Virus record (IMG/VR): IMGVR_UViG_3300024062_000043 | Coordinates: 1 to 28,776 of that record | Origin: a virus | Reading direction: 5' to 3' (one strand) | Length of the DNA stretch: 28,776 nucleotides | Part shown: positions 1 to 19,700 of the stretch, in pieces | Layout of the letters: each line of letters opens with the position of its first letter | How positions within the stretch are numbered: position 1 is the first letter of the stretch | Position numbers and translations under genes: made by a program | The notes under the pieces: generated by a model | What the model saw: the letters and a program-made list of their open reading frames with translations, nothing else | What the model was told of the DNA's origin: nothing | The model's database searches: none

Positions 1-1340
1 GTGAAATTGGAATGATGAGTAAATATGGTGGAGGTACAAGTGCTTTTATTGGTAACATTAGAGCAAGAGGAACTGAAATATCTACAGGTGGTTTTGCTGA
101 TGGTCCAGTGCACTATGCTAAGATTTATGATACTGTAGTGGACGTTTGCAAGCAGTCTGAGGCCAGACGTGGTGCTTGTGCAGTATACCTACCAGTTGAG
201 CATGCGGATATCTTAGAGTTCTTAGATATTGGTACAGAGGGTAATCCTATACAAAATTTACAGTATGGTGTTACAGTTACTGATCAGTGGATGCAAGAGA
301 TGAAAGATGGTGATAAGAGCAAGCGTAAAGTATGGGCTAAGATCATTCAGAACAGAAGTGAGTTTGGGTTTCCTTATATTATGTTTAAAGATAACTCTAA
401 CAATAATTCTCCTTATAAAGAACTTGGTATGGAGATTACAGCATCTAATCTATGTTCAGAGATCCAGCTTCCTACTGATAGTTATAACTCTTTTGTATGT
501 TGTCTTGGTTCTATTAACTTATTACACTGGGACCTTATAAAAGAAACGGATGCAATTGAAACATATGTATATTTCTTAAACGCAGTAATGGATGAATTCA
601 TTATTAAGTCTGAGACTATGCCGGGTATGAAGAGAGCGTTTAACTTTGCTGAGAAGCATAGAGCAATTGGTCTTGGTGTATTGGGATACCACTCTTTGTT
701 TCAATCTAAGCTTCTTGAGTTTGACTCATTACAAGCTAAAGGATTAAACAGTGAGATCTTTAGAACACTTAAAGATAGAAGTGAGATTGCTTCTAGAGAG
801 TTGCATAATGTGTATGGATACACATCTCTTAGAGAAGGGTATGCTAACACTACTCTTATGGCCATTGCTCCTACTAAGTCTAGTTCATTTATACACGGTG
901 CTGTGTCTATGGGTATAGAACCTATTAAGTCTAACTACTTTATTAAGGACCTTGCTAAGTCTAAGACTATTTACAAGAACCCATTTTTAGAAGAGGAACT
1001 TGAGAAGTATGGTCTAAATACAGACAAGACTTGGAAATCTATCCTAAAGAAAGATGGTAGTGTACAACACTTAGATTTTCCTACTAAAGCAGTGTTCAAG
1101 TCTTTTGTTGAGATATCTCCAAAAGAGCTTGTACTCCAGGCGGCACAAAGACAAAAGTATATTGATCAGTCACAGTCATTAAACTTGATGATAGATCCAT
1201 CTGTCTCAGCTAAGGATATTAATAAGTTATATATGTATGCTTGGGAAGAAGGTGTGAAAACTTTATACTATCAATTTAGTAAAAGCAGTGCACAAGACTT
1301 TGCAAGAAACATTTTAGAATGTAGTAGTTGTGAAGGTTAG
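1..1340 (+). CDS. nrdA: Ribonucleoside-diphosphate reductase class I alpha subunit, 5'-truncated by the window edge
   Basis: Catalytic subunit that reduces ribonucleoside diphosphates to deoxyribonucleotides with a radical-generating beta subunit (not in this window); cytoplasmic dNTP supply for phage replication. The frame is open from base 3 (Glu-Ile-Gly before the first ATG at 12), so the true start is upstream; the N-terminal part with the first redox cysteine is missing. Counting from the Met at 12, I see the active-site NLCSEI (Asn146, Cys148, Glu150, matching the catalytic N-x-C-x-E), Cys163 in CCLGSINL (partner of E. coli Cys462), the APTKSSSFI loop, IDQSQSLNL, the tyrosine pair in LYYQ that relays the radical, and a C-terminal CSSCEG redox tail. 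The tail ends precisely at the TAG stop, so the 3' end is genuine. The next small gene overlaps its last 11 bases; the leftward late block converges on it. Confidence 0.95.
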   Translation, partial: EIGMMSKYGGGTSAFIGNIRARGTEISTGGFADGPVHYAKIYDTVVDVCKQSEARRGACAVYLPVEHADILEFLDIGTEGNPIQNLQYGVTVTDQWMQEMKDGDKSKRKVWAKIIQNRSEFGFPYIMFKDNSNNNSPYKELGMEITASNLCSEIQLPTDSYNSFVCCLGSINLLHWDLIKETDAIETYVYFLNAVMDEFIIKSETMPGMKRAFNFAEKHRAIGLGVLGYHSLFQSKLLEFDSLQAKGLNSEIFRTLKDRSEIASRELHNVYGYTSLREGYANTTLMAIAPTKSSSFIHGAVSMGIEPIKSNYFIKDLAKSKTIYKNPFLEEELEKYGLNTDKTWKSILKKDGSVQHLDFPTKAVFKSFVEISPKELVLQAAQRQKYIDQSQSLNLMIDPSVSAKDINKLYMYAWEEGVKTLYYQFSKSSAQDFARNILECSSCEG

Positions 1341-1524
1341 GTTATTATTACTGTTGGTTTGCCTAGGTTGCAAGCCACAGTATAACCCTGATAAGGATCC
1401 GGATGTACTAGACTGGTATGTAGATGAAGGAGAGCTTATTATTTATACTAAGCAAGACTCAATACAAGATGCATATGATAGAGCTAAATATATTGACTCA
1501 TTAAAAAAGGACTCTATTTTCTAG
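1330..1524 (+). CDS. Small putative lipoprotein (64 aa), GTG start
   Basis: Unrecognised small protein. It begins with MKVRLLLLLVCLGCK: two basic residues, a leucine-rich core and a Gly-Cys pair at residues 13-14, which looks like a short lipoprotein signal peptide with Cys14 as the lipidated residue. The -3 residue is Cys, which is not ideal for a lipobox. The remaining 50 residues are highly charged (DKDPDVLDWYVDEGE, then DAYDRAKYIDSLKKD). No in-frame ATG exists nearby, so the start is the GTG lying inside the last codons of the reductase gene; the 11-base overlap suggests translational coupling. Its 3' end overlaps the end of the convergent holin gene by 11 bases. It could be an outer-spanin-like or cell-surface lipoprotein, but nothing in the sequence proves that. 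The overlaps at both ends leave some chance that it is not expressed. Confidence 0.5.
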   Translation: MKVRLLLLLVCLGCKPQYNPDKDPDVLDWYVDEGELIIYTKQDSIQDAYDRAKYIDSLKKDSIF

Positions 1525-1531
1525 GTCCTTT
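1503..1531 (-). terminator. Hairpin with U-tract, probable end of the leftward late transcript
   Basis: A perfect 7-bp inverted repeat, AAAGGAC at 1506-1512 and GTCCTTT at 1525-1531, encloses a 12-base loop. Read on the minus strand the second arm ends in GTCC followed by six T (complement of the A-run at 1503-1508), the usual form of an intrinsic terminator. It overlaps the holin stop codon (1514-1516) and the stop of the rightward small gene (1522-1524). Read rightward the T-run is only three bases, so it should stop leftward transcription better. Seen by eye; folding energy was not calculated. Confidence 0.5.
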
Positions 1532-1927
1532 GTGGTTATCAATTCTATCTAGGATTTTATTAAGCTCATCTGTTTTTATCAGCCCAGCCATAGAAGCATT
1601 CTTTAGTGCACTTATAATTTGAAGTACCATAAAGGGAACTATAATTACCTCGGATAGCCAACCTGTACCTGCAAAACCTTTTTCTATCATAAGAATAACG
1701 GTCAGGATGGCTAACCATGTAAAAGTATTTTTTGTTATTCTTAGAGCTTTATATGTTTTAAACCCTTCTCTTTTACAGCCTGCCCAAACTCCAAATATAC
1801 CATCTAACCATAATACTGAACAAACAGCTAAGTATTGTTCCATGTTTTCCATTGATAAATCAAAAAAGTACGTACATAAATACGTACAAAATGCTGTTAT
1901 GCTCACTATGAATAATTTAGTTGTCAT
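1514..1927 (-). CDS. Phage holin, holin_4/TcdE-like family (137 aa)
   Basis: Predicted small inner-membrane protein that would form the lesions allowing endolysin to reach the peptidoglycan at lysis. Four hydrophobic segments are visible, at about residues 4-22, 29-50, 68-87 and 91-110, followed by a charged tail ending in DNHKGPRK. The stretch LWLDGIFGVWAGCKREGF, then a Lys/Arg-rich connection and a third hydrophobic segment, has the D-x-x-x-G-x-x-A/W-x-x-x-x-x-x-F pattern of the toxin-secretion/phage-lysis holin family (PF05105 type), and the length fits. It is the last gene of the leftward block, 93 bases downstream of the giant genes, consistent with late expression. An endolysin is not in the window. 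The N-terminus repeats Cys-Thr-Tyr (residues 14-20) because of an inverted repeat in the DNA. The ATG at 1927 lacks a Shine-Dalgarno sequence. Confidence 0.75.
   Translation of the reverse strand: MTTKLFIVSITAFCTYLCTYFFDLSMENMEQYLAVCSVLWLDGIFGVWAGCKREGFKTYKALRITKNTFTWLAILTVILMIEKGFAGTGWLSEVIIVPFMVLQIISALKNASMAGLIKTDELNKILDRIDNHKGPRK
1868..1887 (-). repeat. Perfect 7-bp inverted repeat inside the holin start region
   Basis: GTACGTA at 1868-1874 and TACGTAC at 1881-1887 are exact reverse complements separated by six bases, forming a potential hairpin about 40-60 nucleotides downstream of the holin start codon in the mRNA. It encodes the repeated Cys-Thr-Tyr of the first membrane segment. It may influence holin translation or may simply reflect the repeated codons. 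Confidence 0.45.
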
Positions 1928-2020
1928 TGATTAATCTCATTTTGCTTTAATCCAAAAGGTTTATACTATAATATACATAAATTATACGTCATACCTAGGA
2001 TTTAAACCTGTTAATTTGTC
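1928..2020. other. Intergenic gap upstream of holin (93 bases)
   Basis: The largest non-coding gap of the window. It is AT-rich. On the minus strand it carries TATAAT-like and TATTATAG-like stretches, including GTATAATTTATG around 1978-1989, which could be a -10 element for a separate holin promoter, but I see no properly spaced -35 and no exact Bacteroidota TAnnTTTG box. An imperfect palindrome lies around 1997-2009 (AGGATTTAAACCT). No RNA gene is recognisable. Confidence 0.3.
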
Positions 2021-5000
2021 TTATTTAATATAGAAGCTTTCAAGTTTTTCAAAGTTTTTCCATTTTTGTAAAGTATATAATACAGGAACTACATCATAGA
2101 AGTTTTTTTCTAGCTTCCACATACCTTTCTTAGGTTTGTTTTGATATACATATTTACTGTTTTCTCTAAATTCTTTATCACTATAAACTAGTAAACCAAA
2201 TCCAGTACCAAAAGTAAGGTCAAGTAATTCACCCAACTCTCCAAGAGTTCTTGTAGCAGCTATAGGAGATTTTAACATCTGATATACCTGTTGGTAACCA
2301 CCTAGTGTAGGTAAAGGGTTAAATAAAACCATCTCTTTATAAGTTCTGTTTGCTTGATAAGCCCCAAAGTTTCTAAGCTTTTTAACAAGGATAGGGTCAT
2401 CATCATCTCCACCAACTAAAGTCTCATCTAGGATATGAATAATCAGAAGTATCATTGCTTCACCCAATGTTCTATATACATTTTTAAGCATCATGTTTGC
2501 TTTACCCTCATCGTATCTTCCATCTACAAGTCCGTACTCCTCTTTAAATGATTTACCTAACTCTGCTAAACCAAACTTAGCCATACCCCTTTCACCAGTT
2601 ACAGCAGTTTTTCGTATATGATTTAAAAACTTAAGTGCAGATGTATATCTACCTTCTAACCAACCTAAGTTTTGATCATAATAATTTTCTTGAAACCTTG
2701 CTCTAAAAGCAGGCATAACCCACTTGTGAAACTGAGCCATTAATATACCTGTAAAGTTATTTTGAATAACCATTCTATCTTCTCTAGCATAGTTACCGTG
2801 TATCTGTTTATTTACTTCACGTATATTATTTCTCATTTCAAATCTCCAGCTATCTGTATATTCTGTAGTAGATCCATCTTTATTAATAATTGTATCATAG
2901 CCTTCTCGCATAGTTACTTTACCTGTTGACTGATCAAAGTCTAAAGCATCAACTAGATTTAGAGAATCTTCACCATTAGATATTTGTGTACCTAATAACA
3001 TAGCCATACCTACAGTACTTTGAACTTTGTATTCAGCACCCTGGTTAAAAGAGTAACCAAAGTTTGTGAATCTTGACCATAAAGTATCACCATCACCTAA
3101 CCCAAATTGTTCTCTTATATCTGCATCATCATCCATCATTCTAAAAAACTGAACTATTGCTTCATATTTATTAAGTGCTTTATCTGGATCATAGTTGCCT
3201 CTTTTTATTTGTAAATTATTACCGGTTATTACTCTACCTGTAAAATCTGCTGCTGACTCAACAGCATTAGCTGTTCTCTCTATCATACCTTGGGTACCCA
3301 TAGTATAAAACATCTTAGTAGCTTCAGTATAATCTCCTGCTGTATAAAATAAACCACCGGCAGCTTCTATGTAATTGTTAATTTGACCCAGAGTCAAGTT
3401 ATTAAAGTTACCAAATATGTTAAAGGCCACATAAGATAATGAGGATAGATTAATTAATCCACCGGCTAACTTATCTACAGCACCTTTAGTTATTTTATCG
3501 TTATCATAGTAAACCATTTTCATCCAATGATGAGCACGTTTTTCTGCATTACTTTGCAAACCAGTTTGACTATCTCTACCTACAACTGTATTCACAAATC
3601 CTTGTGATCCTTGTTTTATTTTTGCAATTAACTCAAGCGCTGTACCTGGTTCTTTATAAGCTCTCATCTTTAAAGCTTGTACCATTGCTTGTAATGTGTC
3701 TTCTATTTGACCCATCACCTCAAAGTTTTCTGCCATACTTGCAAACTTAACTAAACTTTTAGTCATGTCTGTACTAACTTCACCCAGTGTAGGTTGTGAT
3801 CTTAACTTGGCTGCTTCAGCTTCTAATACTGCTCTTTCTTTTTTATATTGGTCAACATTAATACCACCCTGCATTCTTTTATCTTTAAGATCTTGAATGT
3901 CTTCATATACTTTTTCAAGTTGTCCTTCTACCCTTGGGTTACCAGTGTAAAATACAGGAAGAGTATCTACTAATTTTCCCTGTTCATTTAAGAGAACAAC
4001 CTTTTGCTCTGATGTTTCAGTAAATAAGTTCTTTATACTTCCTAAAAACTTAGGTATCATTCTAGCAAAGAAAGATGGTTTAGTCATTACCTCATCCACA
4101 AAGTTATTAGCAATAACAGGCACCTTACCTAGCATTTGCATTCTTTGACTTCTTGGTAGTTTTTTAAGCAAGTCCTCATAATGCTCAACAAACTTTAAGT
4201 AATATTGCTTTCTAGCTTCTCCCAACTGATCTGTTGGGTTCATTATAGCTTCATACTTAGGGTTAATTAAACTAGCGCCTGTATCAGATCTTTTATCTTT
4301 AACCTCAACATAATCAGGCTTTACAGCATCAAAATTTTTATTTTCTTTTATAGCTCCAGTTGGTTCTCTGTTAGCATCTTTAAAAGTTTTTGTATACTCT
4401 ACTTTATAATAGTATTTACTTTTATATACATCATAAGCAGTTTGTGGGACACCTGGTTTTTTAATCCAAGTAACACCCTCTCCATTAGACCAGACTTGAG
4501 CATACTCATAGTTTTTTCTAACGTCAATAAACTCTTGTGTATATTGGTGGAATGTTCCTGAAGTTAAAACACCATCCTCTAGTTTTTCAGCTTGCATAAA
4601 ATCAGCAAAAGCTTTTTTATCTCTATAGAGTTCTTTATTCTTTTCTATTTGAATAGGGTCAGCATTAGCTAAAGAATAAATAGGGAAATATTTTCTTGGT
4701 TTACCATTAGCATCGTAGAGTTTATCTCTCAATGCCTTCTTTTCATTTAGGTAATTTTGACCTATTCTTGTTGTATAGAATCCTGTAAATTTTTTGTCAT
4801 CATTAAACTCAAGCATAAAATCATATAACCTTTGAAGATCTTTTTCACCTGAGAGTTCTAGTAGTGTTTTACCAGCATCTAATATATCTGCTTTTCTAGC
4901 TTGAACTCTATCTAAGAATTCTTGCTTTTTAAACTTAAATATTTTATCCATAGTTGCAAGAATGACATCTTTTGATGTTGCTAAATCCTTGGCATAAAGT

Positions 5001-7768
5001 TCTGAGTTAGATATATCAGGTACAAGATTAAATAACTCATCCAAATCATCAAGAGTAATTGTCTGTCCTGAATGTGACTGTATGACTGTTTCAGCATCTG
5101 TCTTTTTTCCTTTCTTTGCAAAAGCTCTAATTACAGTAGCAACATAATCAAGTATAGCTGTTTTAATTATACCTCTGTTAGCACCTACTTCTGATACAAT
5201 ATCATTACCAAGTAGTTGAGTAAGTTCAATATTAATACTACCTAATAATGATCTTTGTGTTGCATTTAATTCTTTGTTGGCTTCTATAGCATGAAGCCCC
5301 TCAAATGTTGAAAGGAATCTATTAAAGTTTAATATATATGTTATGTATTCTTTTTTACTTTGATTCTTAGGGTCAGTAGCATATTCTTTAAATGACTTCA
5401 TCTGTCTTAGAGCATCCTGTAACAATCTTGTGTACACTCTAGACTGTGATATAGGACCTTCTTGTTTAGCAAGAGCTATGTAACTCAATGTACTTGCTAT
5501 TTCTTCTTGCACATCTTCTTTTGATCTATCTCTATATATGTTTTCCTTTAATAAATCTTCTACTTCTTGTTTACTTTTTAAAGCTTTTTCATATGTTTCT
5601 AAGGCACCAAGAACGGTTCCTTGTTCAGGATATTCTAAAGGATCAACAGTATCAGCAAAATTTTCAGCAGATTCTATATCTTGCTCAGCATTATAAATTT
5701 GTTCTGCTGCGTCTTTAAGGACTTGTTCTGATATCTCTTGTTCTGCTAAGTTTGTATCTATAGCCGGTATTAAAACATTGACCTTTTCTGCATTTTGTTT
5801 ATACCCATGTGGCTCATTACCGTCAAACCTTATTTTCTTACCATTATAAGAAATCAGCAGACTAGCAACATTACCAACACCATACTCAATATCATAGCCC
5901 ATATTTTCAACCATTCTTTGTAAAAGGTTTACTTCTAAAGCATCTAGTGTTTTAAGAGTTAAGGACTTTGTATCAGTAAGTTTTGCATACATACTTGTTT
6001 CTGCCAGAGTTACCTTATCTACATTGTATGGATTTTTCTTATCACCATACAGTATACCCATATCTTTAGTAGAAGTAAATATACCCTTAGCCCAAGTCTT
6101 TGGATTTGTTTTTAAAACGTTTGATTCAGTTAATTGTATTTGTAAAATCTTAAGTTGTCCTGTTGATGCAACCAAGACTATGTCTGCTTTAGAAGCTATC
6201 TCTGAATATGCGTCATGAAAAACAACATTAGTCAACATTACATCTCCTTGACTTTTAACTGTATTAACCTGATTTACTATATTACTAAAAGCCTGCTTAG
6301 CTACATCAGTTTCTATATTTGTAATCTTATCAGATATCTTATCAAAAGATTCATGAGATGCAATAGCATCTAACATTGTACTTAAATCATTTTTAATAAG
6401 CTGTTGTTCTTTAGTTTCTTCTCTACCAAGCGCTTCTTTAGCTGATATAAAAGGTTTTTTGCTGGTAAGACTATAATATTTACCGTCTTCTTTATTCAAA
6501 ATAACCAAGTCATCACTGTTAAAAGTAACTCCTTCTGAGGCAGACAAAGTATCTGATTCCTCTTTAGCACTTTGAACATTGTGAAATAATCTATCAATCA
6601 TTCTTCTCTGTAAAACCCCACCTTCTTTTTTTGCTACATTGACTATCTTTTGTTTTTCAGGTGATAGGCTATATCTTATTCTACCATTAACAGGTGTATC
6701 TAGTTTAAATGATATACCATCTGTATTAAGCAATCTAGCAATGTCACTTAAGGTTGCTTTATCAGATATATTATTTACTTCAAGAACACGCCCTGTAATT
6801 ACCTCATTGAGGTTTTTAATAATTTTAGAAAACCACTCTAAAAATTGTTTTATTTTATCAGTAAAACTTTTAGTTGGGGTATTCTCATACTCATTATTAA
6901 AATGTCTAGATAGTGCTTGTGTTACAATTTCTAATTGAACATCAGCTTCTGTAAATCTTCTTTTACCACGGTAAGCATCTTTTATTTGTTGAGTCATTTC
7001 AGGAAAATTCCTTTGTGCTTCATTTAATAAAGAATTAAATAGATCTTCATTATCTAGTTTTACAGCATCTATGAAAGGGTGTAATACTTCTTCTATTGCT
7101 ATTTCATCTGTTACTCTGCCATTTATTAGTATAGCAGTACCATCCAAATAAAATGAGTTTATTTTACTAAATGGAACTTTTGCTTTTTTCCATTGAGGTA
7201 TACTAGCATAAAGATTCTCTGCATCCTTTACTGACATTAACTTAACATTAATTCCAGGAAACATTCTCATTAAATGTGAAACTACTTTTCTTGCTCTAGG
7301 TTTATCCCATGCTCTAGAGGATTCTAACATGTCAGTTGCAGAAAAAATAGACGGGTTAATAGATACAGAAAATGTTTTTTTTGTTTTAGCTATATCTATA
7401 GACTCAACAGGTATGTTATTTATTTCAAGATACCTATTTAACCTTCTAACATTAGAGTCTATAAGTCTTTGGCTTGGTTGTAATGTATCTGTATCAGTAT
7501 TATTAATATAGTACTTACCCCCAAAGCTATGTATTATTTTTAGCCTTCTAAGATTATTTAATAATGCAACACCAAACTCTTCTTGCTTCAAGTTAAAAAG
7601 AACTTTTTTATTAGCAATCATGTTTTGCGCTTCAACAACAGTAGGTATAGCATCACCCTTTGAAAGTCTCTGATATTGATTTATTACATTATTTGTTATA
7701 ATATCAGTCTTATAAACTTTCTTTAAGTTTTTATACGTTGTTAGATTTTTATTGTGACACTTTCCCAT
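2021..7768 (-). CDS. Giant virion cargo-type protein with degenerate zincin-like domain (1,915 aa)
   Basis: Giant protein of the crAss-like type, probably packaged in the capsid and delivered with the polymerase; its function is not known. Residues about 200-290 resemble a metallopeptidase domain, but the expected HExxH reads EEVLH (Glu226-Glu227-Val-Leu-His230, then Pro): the first His is replaced by Glu, so zinc catalysis is doubtful. It is followed by an amphipathic helical linker (FLEWFSKIIKN region), as after the intact HEAFH of the neighbouring 4,669-aa protein. The middle is mostly helical and charged. The last 500 residues have hydrophobic and aromatic segments (SYVAFNIFGNFNN; QFHKWVMPAFRARF; MILLIIHILDE), suggesting membrane or DNA contact during ejection. 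Start: the ATG lies 3 bases after the TAG of the 4,669-aa gene and in the same frame, with no ribosome site, so it is read by reinitiation or by readthrough. Stop is TAA. Confidence 0.8.
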   Translation of the reverse strand: MGKCHNKNLTTYKNLKKVYKTDIITNNVINQYQRLSKGDAIPTVVEAQNMIANKKVLFNLKQEEFGVALLNNLRRLKIIHSFGGKYYINNTDTDTLQPSQRLIDSNVRRLNRYLEINNIPVESIDIAKTKKTFSVSINPSIFSATDMLESSRAWDKPRARKVVSHLMRMFPGINVKLMSVKDAENLYASIPQWKKAKVPFSKINSFYLDGTAILINGRVTDEIAIEEVLHPFIDAVKLDNEDLFNSLLNEAQRNFPEMTQQIKDAYRGKRRFTEADVQLEIVTQALSRHFNNEYENTPTKSFTDKIKQFLEWFSKIIKNLNEVITGRVLEVNNISDKATLSDIARLLNTDGISFKLDTPVNGRIRYSLSPEKQKIVNVAKKEGGVLQRRMIDRLFHNVQSAKEESDTLSASEGVTFNSDDLVILNKEDGKYYSLTSKKPFISAKEALGREETKEQQLIKNDLSTMLDAIASHESFDKISDKITNIETDVAKQAFSNIVNQVNTVKSQGDVMLTNVVFHDAYSEIASKADIVLVASTGQLKILQIQLTESNVLKTNPKTWAKGIFTSTKDMGILYGDKKNPYNVDKVTLAETSMYAKLTDTKSLTLKTLDALEVNLLQRMVENMGYDIEYGVGNVASLLISYNGKKIRFDGNEPHGYKQNAEKVNVLIPAIDTNLAEQEISEQVLKDAAEQIYNAEQDIESAENFADTVDPLEYPEQGTVLGALETYEKALKSKQEVEDLLKENIYRDRSKEDVQEEIASTLSYIALAKQEGPISQSRVYTRLLQDALRQMKSFKEYATDPKNQSKKEYITYILNFNRFLSTFEGLHAIEANKELNATQRSLLGSINIELTQLLGNDIVSEVGANRGIIKTAILDYVATVIRAFAKKGKKTDAETVIQSHSGQTITLDDLDELFNLVPDISNSELYAKDLATSKDVILATMDKIFKFKKQEFLDRVQARKADILDAGKTLLELSGEKDLQRLYDFMLEFNDDKKFTGFYTTRIGQNYLNEKKALRDKLYDANGKPRKYFPIYSLANADPIQIEKNKELYRDKKAFADFMQAEKLEDGVLTSGTFHQYTQEFIDVRKNYEYAQVWSNGEGVTWIKKPGVPQTAYDVYKSKYYYKVEYTKTFKDANREPTGAIKENKNFDAVKPDYVEVKDKRSDTGASLINPKYEAIMNPTDQLGEARKQYYLKFVEHYEDLLKKLPRSQRMQMLGKVPVIANNFVDEVMTKPSFFARMIPKFLGSIKNLFTETSEQKVVLLNEQGKLVDTLPVFYTGNPRVEGQLEKVYEDIQDLKDKRMQGGINVDQYKKERAVLEAEAAKLRSQPTLGEVSTDMTKSLVKFASMAENFEVMGQIEDTLQAMVQALKMRAYKEPGTALELIAKIKQGSQGFVNTVVGRDSQTGLQSNAEKRAHHWMKMVYYDNDKITKGAVDKLAGGLINLSSLSYVAFNIFGNFNNLTLGQINNYIEAAGGLFYTAGDYTEATKMFYTMGTQGMIERTANAVESAADFTGRVITGNNLQIKRGNYDPDKALNKYEAIVQFFRMMDDDADIREQFGLGDGDTLWSRFTNFGYSFNQGAEYKVQSTVGMAMLLGTQISNGEDSLNLVDALDFDQSTGKVTMREGYDTIINKDGSTTEYTDSWRFEMRNNIREVNKQIHGNYAREDRMVIQNNFTGILMAQFHKWVMPAFRARFQENYYDQNLGWLEGRYTSALKFLNHIRKTAVTGERGMAKFGLAELGKSFKEEYGLVDGRYDEGKANMMLKNVYRTLGEAMILLIIHILDETLVGGDDDDPILVKKLRNFGAYQANRTYKEMVLFNPLPTLGGYQQVYQMLKSPIAATRTLGELGELLDLTFGTGFGLLVYSDKEFRENSKYVYQNKPKKGMWKLEKNFYDVVPVLYTLQKWKNFEKLESFYIK
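7079..7093 (-). other. Degenerate HExxH motif (EEVLH) in the 1,915-aa protein
   Basis: Codons 226-230 of the 1,915-aa protein. The second Glu and the final His of a zincin motif are kept, while the first His is Glu. Glu274 and Glu280 downstream are in the region where the third ligand would lie. I infer a diverged, possibly non-catalytic copy of the domain found intact in the upstream gene. Confidence 0.5.
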
Positions 7769-7771
7769 ATT

Positions 7772-10700
7772 CTATAAATTACATCTTTTGATTTCTTCTA
7801 AGAAATTTTTAATTTTTTCCTCTTCTGTTTTCCCTTCATATGACAATGTTTCATTTTCATATAATGCTGTAAGATCTTTCAAAGATACAATATTATTATC
7901 AGCCAGGTTTTTTCTCATCTCAGTAAACTCATCTGCTATGTATGGAGCATTAATTGTTTCATTATAGAATACTGTTATTAATGGATACTTGTCTTCTAAA
8001 GCTGCATCAAATAAATCTAATTGTTCATTTTGTTTTGAAGTTAGCTCAGGCATATTATTTTCAGCTGATAAAATACCTTCTGTCTCTGTTTTAATATTAG
8101 CTTGTTCTCTTGATTGTGTTGCTGGTTGAGTAGATCTATAAGCATCAGCTAAAGATTCAATAAACCAATCTTGACCACCTGTTTCCCAAACTGTATTTTG
8201 TTTAGTAGGTTGGTGAGTAGAAGAACTTATCCAATCAACACCTCCTTTTTCAGTTATTGAAGAAATTAACCTAGGGTGTTGCTCTAACTTAGCTGATATT
8301 AAATCTACCATCAACCTATAGTTATTACTATTTTCCTTAGTGGGTTTAGTCCTAGCTTCAGACTTATCTTTTAATGCCTGATAAGCTGCCTCAACATCTT
8401 TATAGTTTTTACCGTTAAAAGTTATAGGGTAAGACTCTGCAAGGTTACCTTTAGACTTAGCTAATTCCGTAGGATTAGTAAGCGCTGCTGCTAAACCTTT
8501 AGCATTAGAAGATATTTCAACCTTACTAGTTTGTTCTGTAGGAGTTGTTAAGCTTTCTAAAAGTGTATCAGCATTTACCTGTGCAATGTTAACTGGAACA
8601 GCAGCTGAATCTATTTGAAATTCTACACTGTCTTCTGTAGCAGATACATTTGCACTTTCAGTTCTAAGTGCACGGGCTGATATAGATTTTGATCTATCTA
8701 AATTAAGATTTTCAATATCCAATGAATCAATAACTTGATCTATACCAAGCATGTCTTCTATATTACCTATAATATCAGTTTTATTACTAATATTATTTCT
8801 AACTGTTGCATATGTATCTCTAGCACCAAACATAAACCCTATTGCATTTTGATAATTTGACCCCATAAATGGAACTTCATCATACATAAATGATGTGCTT
8901 TTTTCTTGATCTTCCCTTAGTAAAAATAATTTGTTTGATCTTTCTACTCCAAATCCAGTATCTGTTTCAGTATAATACCTTAAGTATTTTGGTTGATTTT
9001 CAAAAACAAATGCACCATCAACCTGTGAGTTCTTAGGGGCAGATAATGTTAACACACCGTCTTTACTTAGTGCTGTTTTACCTTTAATTGAAGTTTGTGT
9101 ATCTGAAGAACCATCAACGTCTGTCCTAACCTCTTTAAAAGTAAGATTAAACATACCAACATTAGATGATAAGTATCCATTTTCAAACTCATTAAATAAC
9201 TCATCTTTTGTTAAACCAAAAGCATCCTTGTAATCTTTATCATTAAGTAAAGACTCTTTGGCAGTCTCTATTTGTTGTAGATAAGAATCCATTACAAAAG
9301 GAGATATTGCTTCTAATAAGCTATCTTTAGAAAGCTGCAAACCATCTTTAACCATAATGTAATTTACAATTGTTGAGGCATCTTTTCTTGTTGCAGGGTT
9401 ACCATACAATTTTGCAAATGAGGTTTGAAGATCTATCTTCTGGAGTTTATTTAAATTTCTCCATGTATTAGCAGCTAAAATATTAATTCCTGTTTTGTTA
9501 GACTCTGCATTCACAGGTAACTGTGTAACAAATGATTTAAGAAAAAAGTTATCATTGTCTGCAGCATTTAATCTTCTAATAGAATCATAAATATTTTGAG
9601 CATCTACCATAGGGTATATAAGCTTATTGCTTAATGTTCCTGCATCTTTATCTTGTGTATTTGCATTGTTATGCATATACGCTTTTATAGTAAAGTAAGA
9701 AAGCATATCCCTTCTAATCTTCTGCTCTGTCTCTTCATTAAAAGTTATAGCATCTACAGCAAATGACTTTTCAAGTTTTTCATAAAGTTCATTAAATACA
9801 GGAGTTGCTGTTAAGAATACTTGTGGTAAAAGCTCATTTGTTATCTCATTAAAGATATCTAAATTTTGTTTTACAAAACTATTTTCCAAAATACGGGATA
9901 TATCAATTACTGGATTTTCTCCAATTTTTTCTATTGCACCTATTTTCTGTAGATCTTTTTTTATTGATGCTATGTCAGCAAAGTTTTTACCTAGTCCTGC
10001 ACTACCTGATATACCAGTTAATGAATTCATATTACCAATAAATTCATTTATAGTATTTACTGTAGATAAAATTTCTAGCAGTTCTAGCTCTTGTTTAAAA
10101 GAACCACCACCTTCAACTAAACCACCAAGATCTTCTCTAGTTTTTATTCCTGTAGATAAATCTATACCTAATATTTTTCCATCTTTTATTTGACCCTGCT
10201 TAAATGCTAGCTCCTGATTAACAAGACCTTTAAACCCTGCATCAAACTTCTGTATTTTATTAGATGCTTGTTCAAATAGATCTCTGGCTATTTTTGAATT
10301 TAATATAAGTATTGCGTCAGACAACGGAATTCCTAAAGCAACCATTGTTACAGCTCTTGGTACTGCTTGTTTGTGCATACCAAGCTTTGACATAAAGTTC
10401 TCTTTAGAGTTATCAGTAAGCATTGTTATTATAGCAGATATAGTATCCTGCTTTCTTTTACCTTCAGTAGTAGTAGCTGTGTCAAATCCAGTATATGGTT
10501 TATTCAGAATACTAAACTGTAACTCTCCAGGTAACTTTATCTTATACTCACTTAATAAACTAATGGCTAAGTTTGGAGATACAGCTCTACCAATTGCTGC
10601 ACCTTTATTATTAATAAATGATATTACTTTACCATTGATATCATCTACATCAACCTCAGAACCATTCATAGATTGAGTGTAGCCTGGTGCAAATTTTTCT

Positions 10701-13700
10701 AAACTTGCATATGCTTCTTTTACTGCATCTAGTGTAGCCGGGGTATAAGAAATATCTTGTACTGCCTCATTACCCATAAGTGCATATCTCATATTAAGCA
10801 CTGCATTATTAATTGGTGCTTCATATGGCTCACCATATTCTTCTTTATATTTTTGATACTGAGCTTTGGTTACAGGAAGCCCTAGTCTTGTTACAGCCTT
10901 TAGCGCATCATCAGTAAACATTTGATCTATAATAAAATTATCATCATAGCTGTCCTCCAATCTTGAACCTTGAACTTTAAAAGACTTTAATGCTTCAGCA
11001 TAGATTGTGTCTTGTTTAACTTTTGTATTAATATATTCAACATAATCCTTATACTGTCTACCTTGTGTAGCACCATATTGGAAAAACTTCTTCTCTTCTT
11101 TTGAATAATAGTATTCTAATATTTGAGTATATACTTTGTCAATATCAAAATCCGCACCTGATACTTCCACAAGTTCAGCTGCAAACATTGCTGAAGAACC
11201 ATAATAAACAGGCATAAAATCTACAAGTTTTATATTCATTGTAGAATGATTATCTTGTGATGGTATACGCACAGCAAACATTTTTGCAATCATCTCTGGT
11301 ATAGCACCACCTTTTTCTGCAACCTTTTCAAATACATCTTTGAAGTGAGCAGGCATCATACTTTCTGAATAACGTTGTTTTGTTGATCTACCTTTATCAT
11401 CAAACTCTTGTAGACCATATCTAAGTCTATCTATTACAACTATACCTTCTTTAGGTATTTGTTTTTGGGCTAACTCAGCCATAGAGAATTGCTTAACGTC
11501 TAAAGCTTTCATTCTAACTGCATCAGATTCTCTTATTACTTCATGTCTAAGAGGTAAGAATTTACTATTACCTGCTTCATCTTTTATTTCTTCAACACTA
11601 AATACTCTTCTATATATATTATTTCCAAAGTCAGAAACCAAAGCCAAACCATGACCTGGTATTTTTTCCTGGAACACCCCTTTGGTAAAGTAACTTAAAA
11701 ATAACTGTTCTGCTTTTGCAATAGCCAATGGATTGTTAAAGTCAAACTTAGGTTGTCCTGATACAGGATCAATACTAAAAAACTCAATAACATTACTACT
11801 AGATTTAGATGCTTTTAAAGAATTGATTGCATAACTTAAGAATGATGCAAGGTCGGGTGTAAGATTGTTTCTTTCTTTACTTACATTAAACTCTGACATA
11901 ACTCCATCAAAAGTAAATACTAAATTTCTTTTATTTTTAAATTTAAGAACAACTCTTTTCTTCAATGCATCATTATAGAATGCTTTAACTTTCTTTATAT
12001 TAGTAAGAGCTGGATAACCCGGTATGTTTACCTGTTGAGAATCCTCTTGCTCATTTGTAGCTAATAGTTTTATTTGACTTACTTCAGTAACAGAATTTTT
12101 ATTACTTGGATTTACAACTTGTAATCCAAAATCTTTAGCACTTATTATAGAAGATGGCTCTGATATACTTTCATCTAAAAGCTGTACATTTTTCTTAGCC
12201 ATTTTCTGTGCACTTACAGGTGTTGCAATTGCTACATTACCTGTATTTCTTTGAATAGTCTCAAGATCTTCTCTTAGTTTGTGAAGCTCTGGTCTTAACG
12301 GGTTTTCTTCCCAAATAACATTACCGTCATTATCTTTCTTTCCTGTATCTATAGATGTAAATGAGGGTGATAAAACAAAAGCAGACATTTTAATAAACTG
12401 CTCACCGTCAAAATGAACAAACTTTTTAGAGTTTAACATCCCGTCTGTTTGTATTAACCCTCCTTCATCAAAGATATCACTTGATGTAATTCTTTCTCCT
12501 CGTTCTATTTTAGTTATAACATCAGCTTGTGACTTAGTTAATTTACCTAAACCAAACCAAAAGTTTCTAAATGCTTTAGTAGTTAAATAAACCTGTGCAT
12601 CTGCTCTTTCAATACCTTGACCAGTAAACCAAGAGTTTAAAATAGGATCATCAAATGTTAACACTGATATGTTTTCAGTCATGGTATCAACACCTAAATT
12701 GGTATCAACCATATTAGTATATACATTATCAAATGCTGCATTCTGACCCTTAGCTCTTTTAATCTTATCAACAGAGTCTTTAAGTATTAATGCTTGATCA
12801 CCAAGAAGAAGTTCATTTATAGATTTTGTATTTATATAATCATTGAAAAATATCTGTCTTAAGTTATAATCTAAATCTTTTCTTAAGTTTAGTTTTTCTG
12901 CAGCAGCTACAGCATTTGCTCTATCTACACCAGTTCTGTCTTGAACTATACCAGATTTTATTTCATTAGATATTTTATTATCTATTTTAAGAGTATCATA
13001 TAAAGACTTAAATCTTTTATACTTAATTTCTAAATTGTTTCTTAACTGATCTTTAAATTGTTTTTCTGATAATTCATTATTTTTTAATGCTTCTTTAAAA
13101 GTAAGATGCTTTTCAAGAGTTTCTCCAACTTTTTGTTGAGCAGAAACCTCTAAAGATTTCCTTAACTCTTCAGAAATTAAATCTGAATTATTTACAAAAC
13201 TAAGTTTTCTATCATCATATCCTTTGTATGAATCTTTTGTTCTGTTTTCACCCTGTTCTCTAACAATTCTATCATACTCATTTTTTACAAAATCAAATGA
13301 TGCATCTATTATGGTGTCTGTTATATCTGCATTTTTACCAGATACTGCAATTGTAACTGGTAGTGTTGTCATATCATTAGTATTAGATGACTCTAGAATT
13401 CTTATCTGAATAGGAGAGGTGGCTATTTGTTCAACTAAACCAGTTTCTTGGTTTACTACAACAGACTTTTTAAGCTTATTTGTTTTTGGATTAAAGTCTA
13501 ATGTATAGTTGTTAATTAAATTTGCCATAAACTGACCGGCTGTAAAGCTTCCATACTCTGTTGTATTCAACACTCCACTGATATATTGATCATAATCAAC
13601 ATCTCTATCTAATGTTTTAACTTCTGCAACACCAGATACTCTTTGTACTGATAGCATATTAGCATCAGACATTGCTTTAAACTTATCATTATTTAAAAGA

Positions 13701-16700
13701 TAATTATTTGATAAGTATTCTTTTTCTGATAACTCTTGTAATTTTGCCGGATAATTTAATTCCTTTATTCTTTTCAAATGATATGTAGGCTTCTGATGAG
13801 CATTCACTAAATCACCATTTACATTTTTAAATACGGATAAACCAATACTCTCATCAAATATGGCATTGTTAACTGCCATGGACTTTAGTCTACCTGCTGC
13901 ACCTTTCTCATCACTATATAGTTCATGAGCTGTCTCTTTGCTTTTTATAATCTCAGATATAAAATAAAGTTGCTCAGCTGTAATTGGTTCTGCATTTGTG
14001 TTTAATGATAAAAGTAATTCTTGATCAGGATGTTTTTCATTTGTACCATTAGACTTTAGTATGCTAAATTTTATATATTGTGGTGATAAACTTATACCTG
14101 TATTATCAAATATTTGTTTAGCTGCATTTTTACTTGAGTCATCTAATTTCTGGTCATTAAACTTTTTACCACTTAATAATACTTGTCTAAGACTACTTAC
14201 TGATTTTACTGCAGAGTTTCTTTCTTTTGGTTTTATCTTCCACTCTTGTAATAATGAAGTGTAAGCTTGACTCCATAAAGACAACTGTGTATTTGCATCA
14301 TCTCTTTCTGCAGCAGAGAAAGTAATTAAACTTCCGTTATTGTCTGTCTTTTGAAATAACCATTCAACTTTAAAATTGCTAAATGCTTTAAGCTGATTAA
14401 ACAAAATACTATTCTTAATCTTGGTAGGTAACACCATATCTGATACTGACTCACCCATAGTTATACCTAAGTCAGTAAATATCTTGTTAACTGCTGCTTT
14501 TGTATCTGGATTTGACGTAGAAAATAAAGCTAAAGACTGAACAATTTCCATGGGTTCAGTTCTACCCTCCATAGCTTTCATAATACCGTTGTAAGTATTA
14601 TATACATTTATAGGTACAATCAACTTTTCTTCTCTATTATCTTTTCTTGTTATAGTTGTGTTACCAAATATATCTGACTCAGCTCTTGTTATTGTAGCTA
14701 AATACTTTCTAAAGTAAGATGATAATGAGCTAAAGCTTCCATTAAGGTATGCTTCTTTACCATACTGAGTTACATTTCTTAGACCTTGATCTTGTTCAAG
14801 GCTATCTGCTTCCTCAACCTCTTCTGCTTTTTGGAAGTCTATTGTATCCAAAACATCAAAAGCAGCTTTATAATAAGGTGACTCAGTTAGGTCTTCATAA
14901 CTATTAGAGTATATAAAAGAATCTGTAATTTTTTGTAACAGTTTAGATCTTTCACCATCATTCATATTGCTTTGATTAGATGGATTGTCAACACTATACA
15001 ACCACTCAAAGTCATCTAATATTTCTGACATTCTATCTTCTCTAGAGACTTTAGGGTCTTGTTGCTGTCTCTCTACAAATGTAGCCGCCATAGTTAAAAC
15101 TATATTATTAGCTACACTACTATCCAAAAACAGTTGTCCTTTACTTGTTCCTACTTGTACTTGCTCATATGGAATAACAGCATTTGCTATTACTATCTCA
15201 TTGCTATAGTTATCTGTAAATTCATTTGATACTGATTCAGCCTGTGCGTATCTACCAGAGTCTATATTTTCATATAAACTTTGCAATTGAGTTTTAGTAT
15301 ACTTAGAGAATATACCTTTTATCCAATCAAGAAGTTTTGTAAACCATGACTTAACAACAGAATCTGTATTTGTATCTCTTGGGTTTAATTTAAATTTATT
15401 AAACTCATCCGCCATATATTCTTCATAGAAAAGATTTTGTAATTCTTTTAGACTTAGATTATCATATTGCTCAGATGTATTTTTAAATTTCTGTAATTCT
15501 TTAGTAAATGATTTATTTTCTTTTCTTAGCTTAGATCTTACTTCTTTTCTAGCAATTGCTCTTAACTTAACTTGTTCTTCTGGTGTTAATAACAATCTGT
15601 ATACTGCGTGAAATGCCTCATGGTATTTAAATGGGTTACTTGCACCAGTATATATTGTTCCACCTATTTTAAGATTTCCTGCCAATGCATTCATGTTCAA
15701 TGCAAAGCCACCTACTCTTACACCACCTTTTAAAAGATTACTTCCTAATACATTTATATCAGCAAGAGTAATAGAATCAGGTAAGTTATTTTGTGCCCAT
15801 ACAGTGAAGTCATTTAAAGATTGTACATCCTCTGCTGTAAAATTTGTAACTACTTTATTTGAAATCAGCTTATCTCTAGCTTGTTTAAGTTTTTGATATA
15901 CCGGGTCATTTCTTAATGCTTTTGTTAATCCTCTAGCACCCACTTCTTTTTTAGTGGTGTCTTCTATTTCTTTTAATTTTACATTAAGTTGATCTAATGG
16001 GCTCTGTGTTATAGATGCTAAGTCTATAGAGCCATCTGTTGACGTTGCCGTTTTTTCTTCCCCAACAGGAATAGGGTTTCCTTCTGCATCAGTGAATGCC
16101 AGTGTTTCAGTAAAGACTGCGTTTGTAGTAATCTTATCTCCTAGATTGAGTATTTTATTAGTGTTATCTTCTGCAGATAAATTTACATCTTTATCAAAGC
16201 TTGCTTGATTAGCAGCACTTGTAGTTTCAAAATTTAATTTAGAGTTACGTCTGACTCTAGGACTAAGCTTTGTACCAAGGGATTCTAATGTAGTTTGTAC
16301 ATCAGCGTTTAATGATAATGATGTTGTAAATTGATTCAAAGAAATATTTACAGTATCATAACCAGCAACATCTAAGTCAGCATTAATCTTTTTCAATAAG
16401 TCATTCAGTTGCTTCAAAGGATCTGATGAAGCTTTAATTTCTGAAAGCTCTAGATATGTAGTTGTTATTTTACTTCTATTTTTTTCTACTACTGCACGTA
16501 TTTTTCCAAAGGGTGCAACATTAATAGTAACATCAAATCCAGGAACCATTGCTATCCTGATACTCTTATTATTTTCTAGATTAAATACATCAATTTCTTG
16601 ACCAACAGTTTGTTGTGTCTGACCATTAATATAATTTCCTTTTTCATTAATTGAAGGCTTTATATTTTTTTCTTTATTTCCTTCCTTCAGTTCAATAACC

Positions 16701-19700
16701 TTATCCATCATTCCAGTTACAAACTGGCTAATAATGGTTTTGTCTTGACCAATAGTCTTAGCAGTTGCTAATGTATAAACTCCATTAGGTTGTTTAATAA
16801 CATACTGATATCTTTCAGTATAACCTAAAGTGTTAGGACCTAGCATTTTACTCCACAAGCCATTTTGTAAACCTTCCTTAGCTTCTTTTTCTAATACTTT
16901 AAGTTCATCATCTATTAGATTGCTTATTACTTCTGGTTCACCAACGGATTCTCCATTCTTATCTCTAGTAATATCATAAATAAGAATACCACCTTTTCCA
17001 TCTGAAGAAAGACCTGCTTTATAAAAGTCACTTAATACTGTTAATGGGTTGTCTGTATTATAATCAGGGTAACCATCTTCTCTTACAATTGAAAAACCAT
17101 TCTCCTTCAAACTTTCAAAAGTAATTTCAGTTATACCTGAAGCGTATTGTTTATTTAAGAAGTTTACTAAAACATCTTTTCTAGTTGTAGAATCAATTGC
17201 TTTTGCAAGCTCTTGTTCAATTGTTGTTTTAGATGTATCTACATTAAATATATTTTTAGCCAGATCTGTAGACATTGTAGAAGGTGTGAATTCATTTACA
17301 CCCACTTTATATATATAAGAACTATTTGCAATGTTACCTATAATGCCATTATTCTTATCACTAATAGGTTGCAACCCTACGGCTTGTAATTTTTGGTTAA
17401 CTTCAAGAAGAGTAAGCTCATCTTTAATTCTTATCTGTATATTATAAGGTTCCCCTTTTGTAAGTATGTATTTATTTGGTTGAGCTACACCACCATAGCT
17501 AAATTGTGTTGCTGCTTTATTAGGATTAGGTTTTACATCAATTACTAAATTATTATAAACATTATCAGTTAGGTTGTTTATAATCCAGCTTAAACGTTTT
17601 TCAGCACTTTCCTTTGATTCACCTGCGTTTTCTCTTACATAAATATTAGCAATGTTATCTGCTGTTATCTTAGCAGTACCATCAGGAACTTTATCAACAA
17701 TAAGTTTTTCATCATAGTAACGCTCACTAAAATCTAATTCAGACTCTGTTATTGCTTTTTGTTTTCTGTCAGCATAAGGTTTACCATAATCTTCTGGAGT
17801 AACTAACTGAATGTTATCTCCTAAAGGTCTATTTACTGCAACTCTAAATTCTTCTCCTGTAACTTTATCATATACAAATTGACCTCTTATAAGTGTAAGG
17901 CCATCAAACTTAAACGTAGAACCATCTGAATATTCTTCTTCTAGTATAGTAAACTGATCTAAAGCTGCTCTAGCATTGTTGTAAACACCTTGACCAGATA
18001 TTGCATCTAATTGTACTGCTGATAAATCTGATCCATTGTTGTTTATTATTTTATATAATTTTTGATCTTCATCAGCTACATCTATTGATATAACTCTGAA
18101 ATTAACTCCATCACCACCCTTAATGGCTTTTAAATTACTTTTCTTATTGATATTCCTGTTTGTAAAAATATCATAAGATAAATCTAGCTGTTTTAATATA
18201 TCTTCTATAATAGGATTTTCAATAGCTTCTCTACTATCTAGATACTCTTGGAAACCTTTTTCTTCATCTATATCTCCTGCAGATGGTATTCTTGACCTTT
18301 CAACTAAATTGCCATATTCTTCAACTGTAGTTGAATAACCTTTTGCCCATACTCTCTTTATAGCAATAAAAGCTTTTTTAATTTTAAGAGCCTCGTTTGT
18401 TGCTGACCATTGTGAAAAATCTAATGGGTCTGAGGACTTGTCATTAGCTCTGTATTTTAGATACTGCTGTTTAAGTATTTCATTTAAGATGTTTGAATCA
18501 ACTTGTTCATCTACCTCAACATCTATTCCAGCTTGTTGTAGTGTTTCTTCAATATCTAATATTTCTGCATTTGCCACAGCTTCATCAGATACTTCACTCT
18601 TTCTTTCTTGTTGAACTTTTACACCAATGTAATTTTTAATTATTGCTACTGCTTTTGCTAATGACTCAGCATCTTTTATAACATTTGGATTTAAACGTCT
18701 GCCGTTTTGTATAAGCTTACCTTCATTTACTCCTTGAAGTAAATCCTCTAAACTTATTTCATCTTGTAAAAATTCTCTTGCAAAGCTTTCTTCCATTAGA
18801 ATATCTACTTCAGCTAATCCATTTAATAATTTAGTTTTTTCAACACTATCTATAAATGCTTCAGTCTGTCTTTTATATATTGTCTTTCTATTTTTATATA
18901 TATACTCAAGATATTCCGTGGCTCTTTCTTCTAATTGCTCTTGGACTTTTGGATTAGTTAAAAGGTCAACTGATTTACTATATGCAGAAGCATCTTCTTG
19001 TAAGGCTACATGATCAGTAATTAAAGTTAAAGCTTCTTTTATCTTACCGTAGTCTACAAAATCACTAGACTTGTCTGCTAATGCTTCAATATAGTTTTTA
19101 AATGCTGTATCTAAACCAGATGTTTTTACTTTGTTTCTAGCAAAGTAACCTTTCTTTGTTAAGTTTTTAGGATCAGTAAATATCTTAAGATACTTTTCTA
19201 ATGCTTTCTTTTTCTTTTGTTTTTTTGATTTTAATTTATTCCCTTCTGTAGTATCCTCATATGCGTCTATCTCTGTTTCTAAAGTTTTGATCTCTTGTTC
19301 TATTGTATCTTTAGTGTATAGTAATCTTATATCAGTTGCTCCTTGATTGGCAATAAGTGGTTCTGTTTCTAGTCTATTTTCTATTTCAGACTGTCTTATT
19401 GCTGCATTTTTAAAAGACTCATTAGTAAACATATAAAGCAATTTTGTTTGCTCATATGCTTGAAGTTTAAAAGACTCTTTAATAAACTCCTCAGTACCTG
19501 GATCAAACTGTTTAGGATCATATTTAGTTGGAAAAATACCACCTAGATTATCAGTAACAGTTTTTCCAAAAGAATCTATTCTTTCTAATTGAGTTGATAT
19601 TTTATTTCTTAATGATTTAGCACTTCTACCGCTTCCTTTAAATGCATCAACTAACTCTTTATCATTTAGTTTATTTAAATTAACAAGATTGTCTTTTAAA

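Follow-up and report, generated by a model that had tools for sequence, protein, structure and literature searches.

The virus record IMGVR_UViG_3300024062_000043 (28,776 bases; hereafter the window, meaning the whole stretch of DNA analysed) encodes a 4669-amino-acid (aa) protein that resembles the RNA polymerases of crAss-like phages and carries, near its C-terminus, a small domain reminiscent of the NADAR enzymes, which raises the question of what this domain is and what it does on such a protein. Profile and structure comparisons identify it as a short, divergent NADAR homologue, and comparison of related phages reveals an optional, exchangeable cassette that phages swap and that some of them lack. 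With confidence slightly better than even, we favour the explanation that the cassette is a short NADAR-fold N-glycosidase that is injected into the cell and acts against host NAD/ADP-ribose-based defence.

Identification of a NADAR-like domain

Window positions 8117–8524 (minus strand) encode aa 4420–4555 of the 4669-aa open reading frame (ORF) at 7772–21781. A preliminary description of this DNA had placed a NADAR-like domain here, and both its coordinates and its identification are borne out by the comparisons below. Searches with the single sequence against Pfam, PHROGs, NCBIfam and the PDB did not identify the domain; their sole pointer was the NCBIfam NADAR anti-phage model, which the window matched below threshold (E 0.062). 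Relatives were collected at 42 viral and 4 bacterial loci, and 37 of the 39 distinct domain sequences were aligned (alignment A2; the almost identical L005 and the truncated L040 were omitted). Fourteen of the 37 match the same NCBIfam model weakly (best E 0.0061), and one matches TIGR02464, the riboflavin-intermediate N-glycosidase model (E 0.0012). Such matches prove nothing by themselves because unrelated models match at similar strength, and the most that can be said is that those of the relatives to NADAR models appear mutually consistent. The top weak Pfam matches (Biopterin_H, DUF6680 and Baculo_p24) were rejected as chance, being partial, below cut-off and absent from most relatives, as were matches of A2 to PADLOC models (Csn2, AbiEii and others) with the same three failings. 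The search against PF08719 that the preliminary description had suggested gave no direct match for the window protein, and the copy in Tychonema scored 12.1 bits against a curated cut-off of 35.1; by sequence the domain falls outside PF08719, that is, the YbiA and BC4488 families proper.

Profile–profile comparison with hhalign aligned A2 with nine gp30.3 sequences at E 1.2e-4 (probability 54.8, 21% identity) and with 23 cyanobacterial YbiA-type NADARs at E 1.9e-4, the latter being those of the 33 loci L048–L080 whose ORF carried the search pattern. A joint NADAR and gp30.3 profile gave a probability of 87, an E-value of 4e-6 and a score of 39.6. Significance was judged against column-permuted copies of the same targets rather than against a database: none of 200 decoys reached the joint-profile score (best decoy 18.3), and the single-set scores likewise lay above all decoys (29.7 against a best decoy of 20.6, and 31.9 against 25.5). 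PF08010 (Phage_30_3) was not among the 25 of 27 matching families listed for A2.

The AlphaFold model of the domain has a predicted local distance difference test (pLDDT) value of 95.9 and a predicted template modelling score of 0.90. Among 145 chains preselected by Foldseek, VIA-align superposed it best on 8bau, a NADAR with ADP-ribose (Z 10.2, 120 residues, 3.0 Å), and on YbiA, as the preliminary description had anticipated (2b3w; Z 9.4, 118 residues, 3.2 Å), with the third-best chain at Z 2.6. Five of the six best Foldseek matches in BFVD are named NADAR (best E 9.8e-4), and BFVD matches to giant proteins of gut crAss phages are weak (probability 0.63 for cr272_1, 0.23 for cr131_1 and 0.08 for cr130_1). 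A profile search of PDB sequences placed YbiA and 8bau only sixth and seventh (E 0.34), with an unrelated chain ahead of them at 0.017. Profile alignment and model together identify the domain as a NADAR homologue with a predicted YbiA-like fold.

Conserved residues and a shortened pocket

Twelve positions are invariant in A2, including Glu4464, His4523 and Trp4532, the first and last of which had been singled out beforehand as pocket residues. All three blocks previously read as NADAR-like are present in the window protein (E4464-AAYQAL-K4471, A-K4498-LEQH and W4532-ETGG), and the seven-residue spacing from Glu4464 to Lys4471 is that found in 8bau. In the NADAR of P. nicotianae, the distal ribose is coordinated by E43 and E125, and K50 makes contacts with both adenine and pyrophosphate; BC4488 has Asp at the E125 position and phage NADARs have His (PMC11543638). 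His4523 is aligned by hhalign to the invariant His of gp30.3, a placement of the third catalytic position that comes from one alignment. The four sequences with Arg in place of Lys4471 are not disqualified, because the K95R variant of the E. coli C7 NADAR keeps its activity in vitro, with loss of cell rescue (PMC11543638). Judged by its residues, the domain is a short, divergent NADAR of the histidine (phage gp30.3) type.

The alignment with YbiA does not run over the whole domain, as had been claimed. The stretch from the Lys to the next helix measures 9–18 residues in 36 of the 37 members (those caught by the pattern) against 37–41 in the 23 YbiA-type NADARs, slightly different patterns being used for the two groups, and in our own reading of the hhalign alignment the Trp block is not in register with the YbiA-type Trp. 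The missing stretch of about 25 residues carries R79, Y84, D86, W89 and R93 (also K75) in 8bau, which make adenine, proximal-ribose and pyrophosphate contacts. Because this contact segment is missing, the substrate is uncertain and ADP-ribose may not be the ligand. Ahead of the first strand the domain family has a conserved segment in which Lys4444 and Tyr4451 do not vary; that it stands in for the lost contacts is a guess.

A shortened pocket would also suit a NADAR fold that binds without cutting and acts as a sponge for, or sensor of, an NAD-derived signal, and so would the SLOG-like neighbours or modules of some relatives (described below); Tad1 and Tad2 are sponges for other signals (PMC12043709). 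Binding alone would not obviously need the Glu and His that are invariant in all 37 sequences, and we consider this alternative distinctly unlikely.

The polymerase that carries the domain

When aa 2900–3899 of the 4669-aa protein were compared with 50,697 phage records by tblastn, 65 records matched (best E 3e-12). The 20 matches listed are mostly from crAss-like and uncultured gut phages, and many of these are annotated as RNA polymerase (RNAP) subunit, RNAP catalytic subunit or putative RNA polymerase. The same region contains a DxDxD motif of the family described for crAss-like polymerases (PMC7886860). A structure predicted for it from six sequences reached only pLDDT 39.5, with the double-psi beta-barrel not modelled confidently, and for this reason the assignment as a crAss-like phage RNA polymerase is made by sequence similarity and motif. 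The protein also contains a zincin-like HExxH motif, of a kind common in polyvalent proteins.

Three RNA polymerase-associated proteins of phi-crAss001 are virion cargo (PMC10172136), and the phi14:2 polymerase is stated to be translocated with the DNA (PMC7886860). By analogy, the 4669-aa protein is probably packaged in the virion and injected at infection. The fusion to an injected polymerase that the preliminary description proposed holds as far as the match to crAss-like RNA polymerase goes, with delivery argued from other crassviruses.

An exchangeable cassette

Domain and DxDxD motif share one ORF in 26 of the 35 distinct viral domain sequences (21 recognised by pattern; L006, L022, L028, L029 and L039 read from their sequence context). 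Among the other nine, L008, L020 and L040 are cut by the contig end on the motif side; L027 has the domain in a large ORF with no DxDxD motif in the part covered; L023 has it in a different large ORF that resembles the N-terminal portion of the giant protein; L011 has it in a 434-aa ORF; and L035, L042 and L038 have it in small ORFs, the last cut downstream by the contig end. In L014/L015 and L037 the domain lies ahead of the motif rather than behind it.

Synonymous divergence (dS) from the window was computed for six pairs, of which that with L003 is uninformative because L003 is nearly identical throughout. Between the window and L005, dS is 1.02–1.36 in the polymerase parts (aa 2600–4377) and 0.02 in the domain; the values for L006 are 1.06–1.41 and 0.10. 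The L006 comparison shows a block of 95.8% identity at aa 4415–4548, whose edges coincide with the domain limits and whose flanking bins drop to 38–69%, and in L005 the similar stretch extends to the linker and, at lower similarity, to the tail. L007, L012 and L017 share 78–81% aa identity with the window in the domain and 20–46% in the polymerase parts, as estimated from a rough alignment. Conversely, three contigs that agree in ORF length and C-terminus (L107, L109 and L110) match the window at 93.7% identity over aa 1034–4378 and have no NADAR-like domain; their sequence rejoins that of the window at aa 4597, and the stretch between these points is 224 bases long in them and 218 codons long in the window. 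The domain is an optional, exchangeable cassette that phages swap, and some phages do without it. Five queries, two of them from divergent family members, were run against the 50,697 deposited phage records with E limits between 1e-3 and 1, and none of them found a relative of the cassette.

L005 carries a further segment of some 160 aa (about 5500–6000) in the same C-terminal slot, ahead of the NADAR cassette, and a similar QTS(K/G)VE junction can be seen by eye before each piece. The arrangement suggests that the slot takes multiple cassettes. In L025:1–10188 an AAA_30/PIF1-type helicase domain lies behind the NADAR-like domain of the giant ORF.

The cassette-free sisters bear on two further explanations. 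The domain could serve the giant protein structurally or in packaging and have no enzymatic role, as its place in a protein of virion-cargo type might suggest; its absence from an otherwise 93.7% identical gene, its occurrence in small separate ORFs and on plasmids, and the invariance of its catalytic-type residues make this highly improbable. The preliminary description pointed to the removal of ADP-ribose from guanine by NADAR enzymes and to a possible protection of the polymerase's own template. The corresponding explanation is that the domain specifically removes ADP-ribose from guanine in the phage DNA as it enters, which would reverse the action of DarT1-like host toxins and shield the template of the polymerase. 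In vitro, guanosine-ADP-ribose (guanosine-ADPr) is hydrolysed by each of four NADAR subtypes, phage gp30.3 among them (PMC11125620), the catalytic-type Glu, Lys/Arg and phage-type His are kept, and fusion to a DNA-reading enzyme would put the domain on its template. With the adenine/pyrophosphate part of the pocket missing, however, it is not safe to infer that the domain strips ADP-ribose from guanine, and the phage NADAR failed to rescue cells from DarT1 (PMC11125620, Figure 2 legend). Nor is there a fixed tie to the template, since the position of the domain varies, other ORFs carry it, and a sister with an otherwise intact-looking gene does without it. We hold the guanine explanation to be rather unlikely, and prefer an effector against host defence.

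Relatives in bacteria and plasmids

In two of the four bacterial loci, those of Agitococcus and Variovorax, the copy adjoins a SLOG-family gene and a dual-specificity phosphatase-like gene, both indicated by matches below the Pfam cut-offs (E 8e-5 to 0.0023). The neighbour of the Tychonema copy is SLOG-like by eye and has no Pfam match at E 0.01. In L047 (Variovorax sp. WDL1, 1312–9479) the NADAR-like gene is also near a gene for an RF-1 domain protein and a kinase/phosphatase/RNA ligase, a gene set reminiscent of RNA repair loci. Counting the seeds, matches occur in 3 of 194 cyanobacterial genomes and in 1 of 299 from the phylum of Variovorax, and two of the cyanobacterial matches sit inside ORFs of about 2200 aa.

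With the Tychonema copy as query, 26 of 72,556 plasmid records matched, 17 of them typed as conjugative. Cyanobacterial plasmids, several of them typed as conjugative, encode a protein of some 2200 aa that combines an RNA-polymerase-like RQGRDFDGDCIG motif with NADAR-like and SLOG-like modules. In the 2186-aa protein of Anabaena pANACY.02 (L100), DFDGD (499) is followed by the domain (1641) and a SLOG-like module (1899), and a relaxase gene lies one gene away; a relaxase gene is also found near the protein in L103. By eye, a SLOG-like module is present in five of the six plasmid proteins with the domain (L098, L099, L100, L101 and L104, with L100 the source of the query itself, but not L103), and in the Nostoc plasmid L102 the protein occurs without either module. 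The DFDGD protein gave no PDB sequence match, no Pfam match (searched with L098) and no viral relative, so that its reading as a polymerase rests on the motif. A tree of 41 rows, in which four of the six plasmid-type loci were taken by pattern (L101 and L103 hold the domain and were left out), placed 30 rows including the window on one side of a branch (97/94, with the bootstrap not settled) and the bacterial and plasmid rows, together with L035, L037 and L038, on the other.

These relatives allow a wider proposal: that phages and conjugative plasmids have independently fused the same short NADAR-like enzyme to large RNA-polymerase-type proteins that accompany the DNA into the cell, creating a swappable slot for counter-defence in the first minutes, and that the enzyme is a new branch with a rebuilt pocket for a novel NAD-derived signal. 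We regard this as doubtful. Plasmid copies would also suit an N-glycosidase for attack or exclusion, which would act on a nucleotide or nucleic acid of the host or a rival and serve takeover or the exclusion of rival phages rather than counter-defence. NADARs do include metabolic N-glycosidases acting on riboflavin intermediates (PMC11543638) and are found among bacterial anti-phage proteins (PMC13092281). The standalone bacterial copies have no immunity partner visible by eye, and such a weapon seems improbable to us.

A proposed role early in infection

In the counter-defence explanation that we favour, the polymerase protein would be packaged and ejected with the DNA, and the NADAR-like domain would, by virtue of that delivery, reach the cell ahead of all phage gene expression. 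Once inside, it would most likely hydrolyse the N-glycosidic bond to ribose in a substrate derived from NAD, be it a soluble signal of ADP-ribose type or ADP-ribosylated nucleic acid, and blunt host NAD/ADP-ribose-based defence in the first minutes of infection. A domain that is optional, recombines at its edges, is missing in a closely related sister and retains its catalytic residues resembles an effector aimed at some variable trait of the host rather than a part of the polymerase. Hydrolysis of an NAD-derived molecule is our best guess on account of NADAR chemistry and the SLOG-like neighbours, and the missing segment argues against assuming either low-molecular-weight ADP-ribose derivatives or guanosine-ADPr as the substrate. 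An optional, recombining cassette with a cassette-free allele fits the counter-defence role put forward in the preliminary description; the role itself we infer.

Several observations weigh against this explanation. PF08719 is matched weakly by 5 of the 37 relatives (best E 0.025), as many as match DUF6680; Foldseek against the PDB is weak, with YbiA first at E 0.2 (probability 0.95) and 8bau at probability 0.13; and PADLOC returned nothing convincing for the domain. The segment of about 25 residues with the adenine and pyrophosphate contacts is absent. Packaging and ejection of the 4669-aa protein are carried over from other crassviruses, the SLOG assignments lie below cut-offs or were made by eye, and a Pfam search with the plasmid protein L098 gave no match at E 0.1. 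The fold alone, moreover, is silent on the side that is served, because NADARs also occur in bacterial defence (PMC13092281; NCBIfam NF053876).

If the favoured explanation is right, an anti-defence enzyme is physically joined to a polymerase that relatives are known to deliver from the virion, and it acts ahead of any phage gene expression. Close phage relatives with and without the cassette provide a natural control, the compact NADAR branch poses a testable substrate question, and the conjugative plasmids point to a similar arrangement.

Gene context of the window

The main block of minus-strand genes comprises ORFs of 218, 949, 1136, 4669 and 1915 aa and a holin-like ORF (Table 1). By tblastn the 1915-aa ORF matched 67 phage records (best E 2e-17), and the 20 matches listed are all annotated as RNA polymerase or a subunit of it. 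The 949-aa neighbour, at most a candidate cargo protein, had no phage match by tblastn. The holin-like gene (1514–1927, minus strand; PHROG 199, E 6e-5) directly follows the polymerase block, and a ribonucleotide reductase large-subunit gene of NrdE-prime type (3–1340, plus strand), cut at the window start, lies on the strand opposite to the main block.

Table 1 Coordinates of features in the window and of related plasmid proteins.
Feature	Position	Strand	Basis or remark
Giant ORF, 4669 aa, putative crAss-like RNA polymerase catalytic protein with NADAR-like cassette near the C-terminus	7772..21781	-	ORF call, tblastn
Second large protein (1915 aa), resembles a crAss-like phage RNA polymerase subunit	2021..7768	-	tblastn
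HEAFH, zincin-like HExxH motif, aa 2054–2058	15608..15622	-	motif match only
DFDID, RNA polymerase DxDxD motif, aa 3544–3548	11138..11152	-	motif search
Linker before the cassette, aa 4378–4419	8525..8650	-	diverged counterpart in cassette-free allele (by eye)
NADAR-like domain, aa 4420–4552	8126..8524	-	profile, model, alignment; block edges from nucleotide identity
Glu4464, equivalent of NADAR E43 (P. nicotianae) / E88 (E. coli C7)	8390..8392	-	E 37/37; hhalign register
Lys4471, equivalent of NADAR K50 / K95	8369..8371	-	K 33/37, R 4/37
His4523, phage-type (gp30.3) catalytic residue position	8213..8215	-	H 37/37
Trp4532	8186..8188	-	W 37/37; equivalence to W133 of 8bau not shown in register
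Common C-terminal tail, aa 4597–4669, also in cassette-free sister allele	7775..7993	-	88.6% nucleotide identity in L107, L109, L110
Plasmid protein loci	L098:3210-9848, L099:4147-10698, L100:3001-9561 (Anabaena pANACY.02)		further plasmid records

Comparison with known systems

The matches listed in our literature search (titles and starts of abstracts, with bioRxiv preprints and most subscription papers outside its coverage) included no description of a fusion of NADAR to a polymerase. With the YbiA/NADAR superfamily (PF08719) the window domain shares its fold (Z 9.4–10.2), the Glu-x6-Lys block, the AK-x-x-Q/T-H helix and profile similarity. It differs from the YbiA and BC4488 families in lacking both a Pfam match and the adenine/pyrophosphate contact stretch of about 25 residues, in having an extra conserved LTNPTE..K..KGN..Y near its N-terminus, and in carrying His in place of Glu/Asp. 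The phage gp30.3 NADARs (T4 gp30.3; Phage_30_3, pfam08010) resemble it in the aligned His at the catalytic position and in a similar N-terminal EI-x-SN...AL-S/T-N block; unlike the window domain, T4 gp30.3 is a separate 152-aa protein that keeps the middle segment.

NADAR, Macro, SLOG and DUF4326 proteins of phages form networks (PMC9503650, PMC7824862) that have in common with the window domain a predicted processing of NAD-derived molecules, frequent packaging and an association with SLOG. Phage NADARs have been argued to meet mainly low-molecular-weight ADP-ribose derivatives and to be often packaged, and viral NADARs are typically standalone outside the polyproteins of eukaryotic RNA viruses (PMC9503650, in which 'crAss' does not occur). 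A NADAR family protein gene has been named in phAss-1. Fusions in jumbo phages are to NAD-using domains and DUF4326 (PMC7824862), whereas the partner in the window is a polymerase, unlike those reported in the available passages of that paper.

As a whole, the 4669-aa protein is comparable to the polyvalent proteins (Iyer 2017, PMC5512222), which are likewise large, polymerase-bearing and equipped with changing fused modules in phages and conjugative elements, an example being an N4-type virion RNA polymerase fused to a metallopeptidase or ART. Its own traits of this type are large size and the NADAR-like module, with a metallopeptidase indicated by no more than the HEAFH motif. It is set apart by a polymerase of the crAss-like DxDxD type and by a module that is NADAR-like, a name found nowhere in the main text of PMC5512222. 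The virion RNA polymerases of crAss-like phages (phi14:2; phi-crAss001 gp47, gp49 and gp50) share sequence similarity, the DxDxD motif and the block of giant proteins with the window, and differ from the window protein with its 4669 aa and C-terminal effector cassette. We file the domain as a new NADAR branch within a known type of injected multi-module protein.

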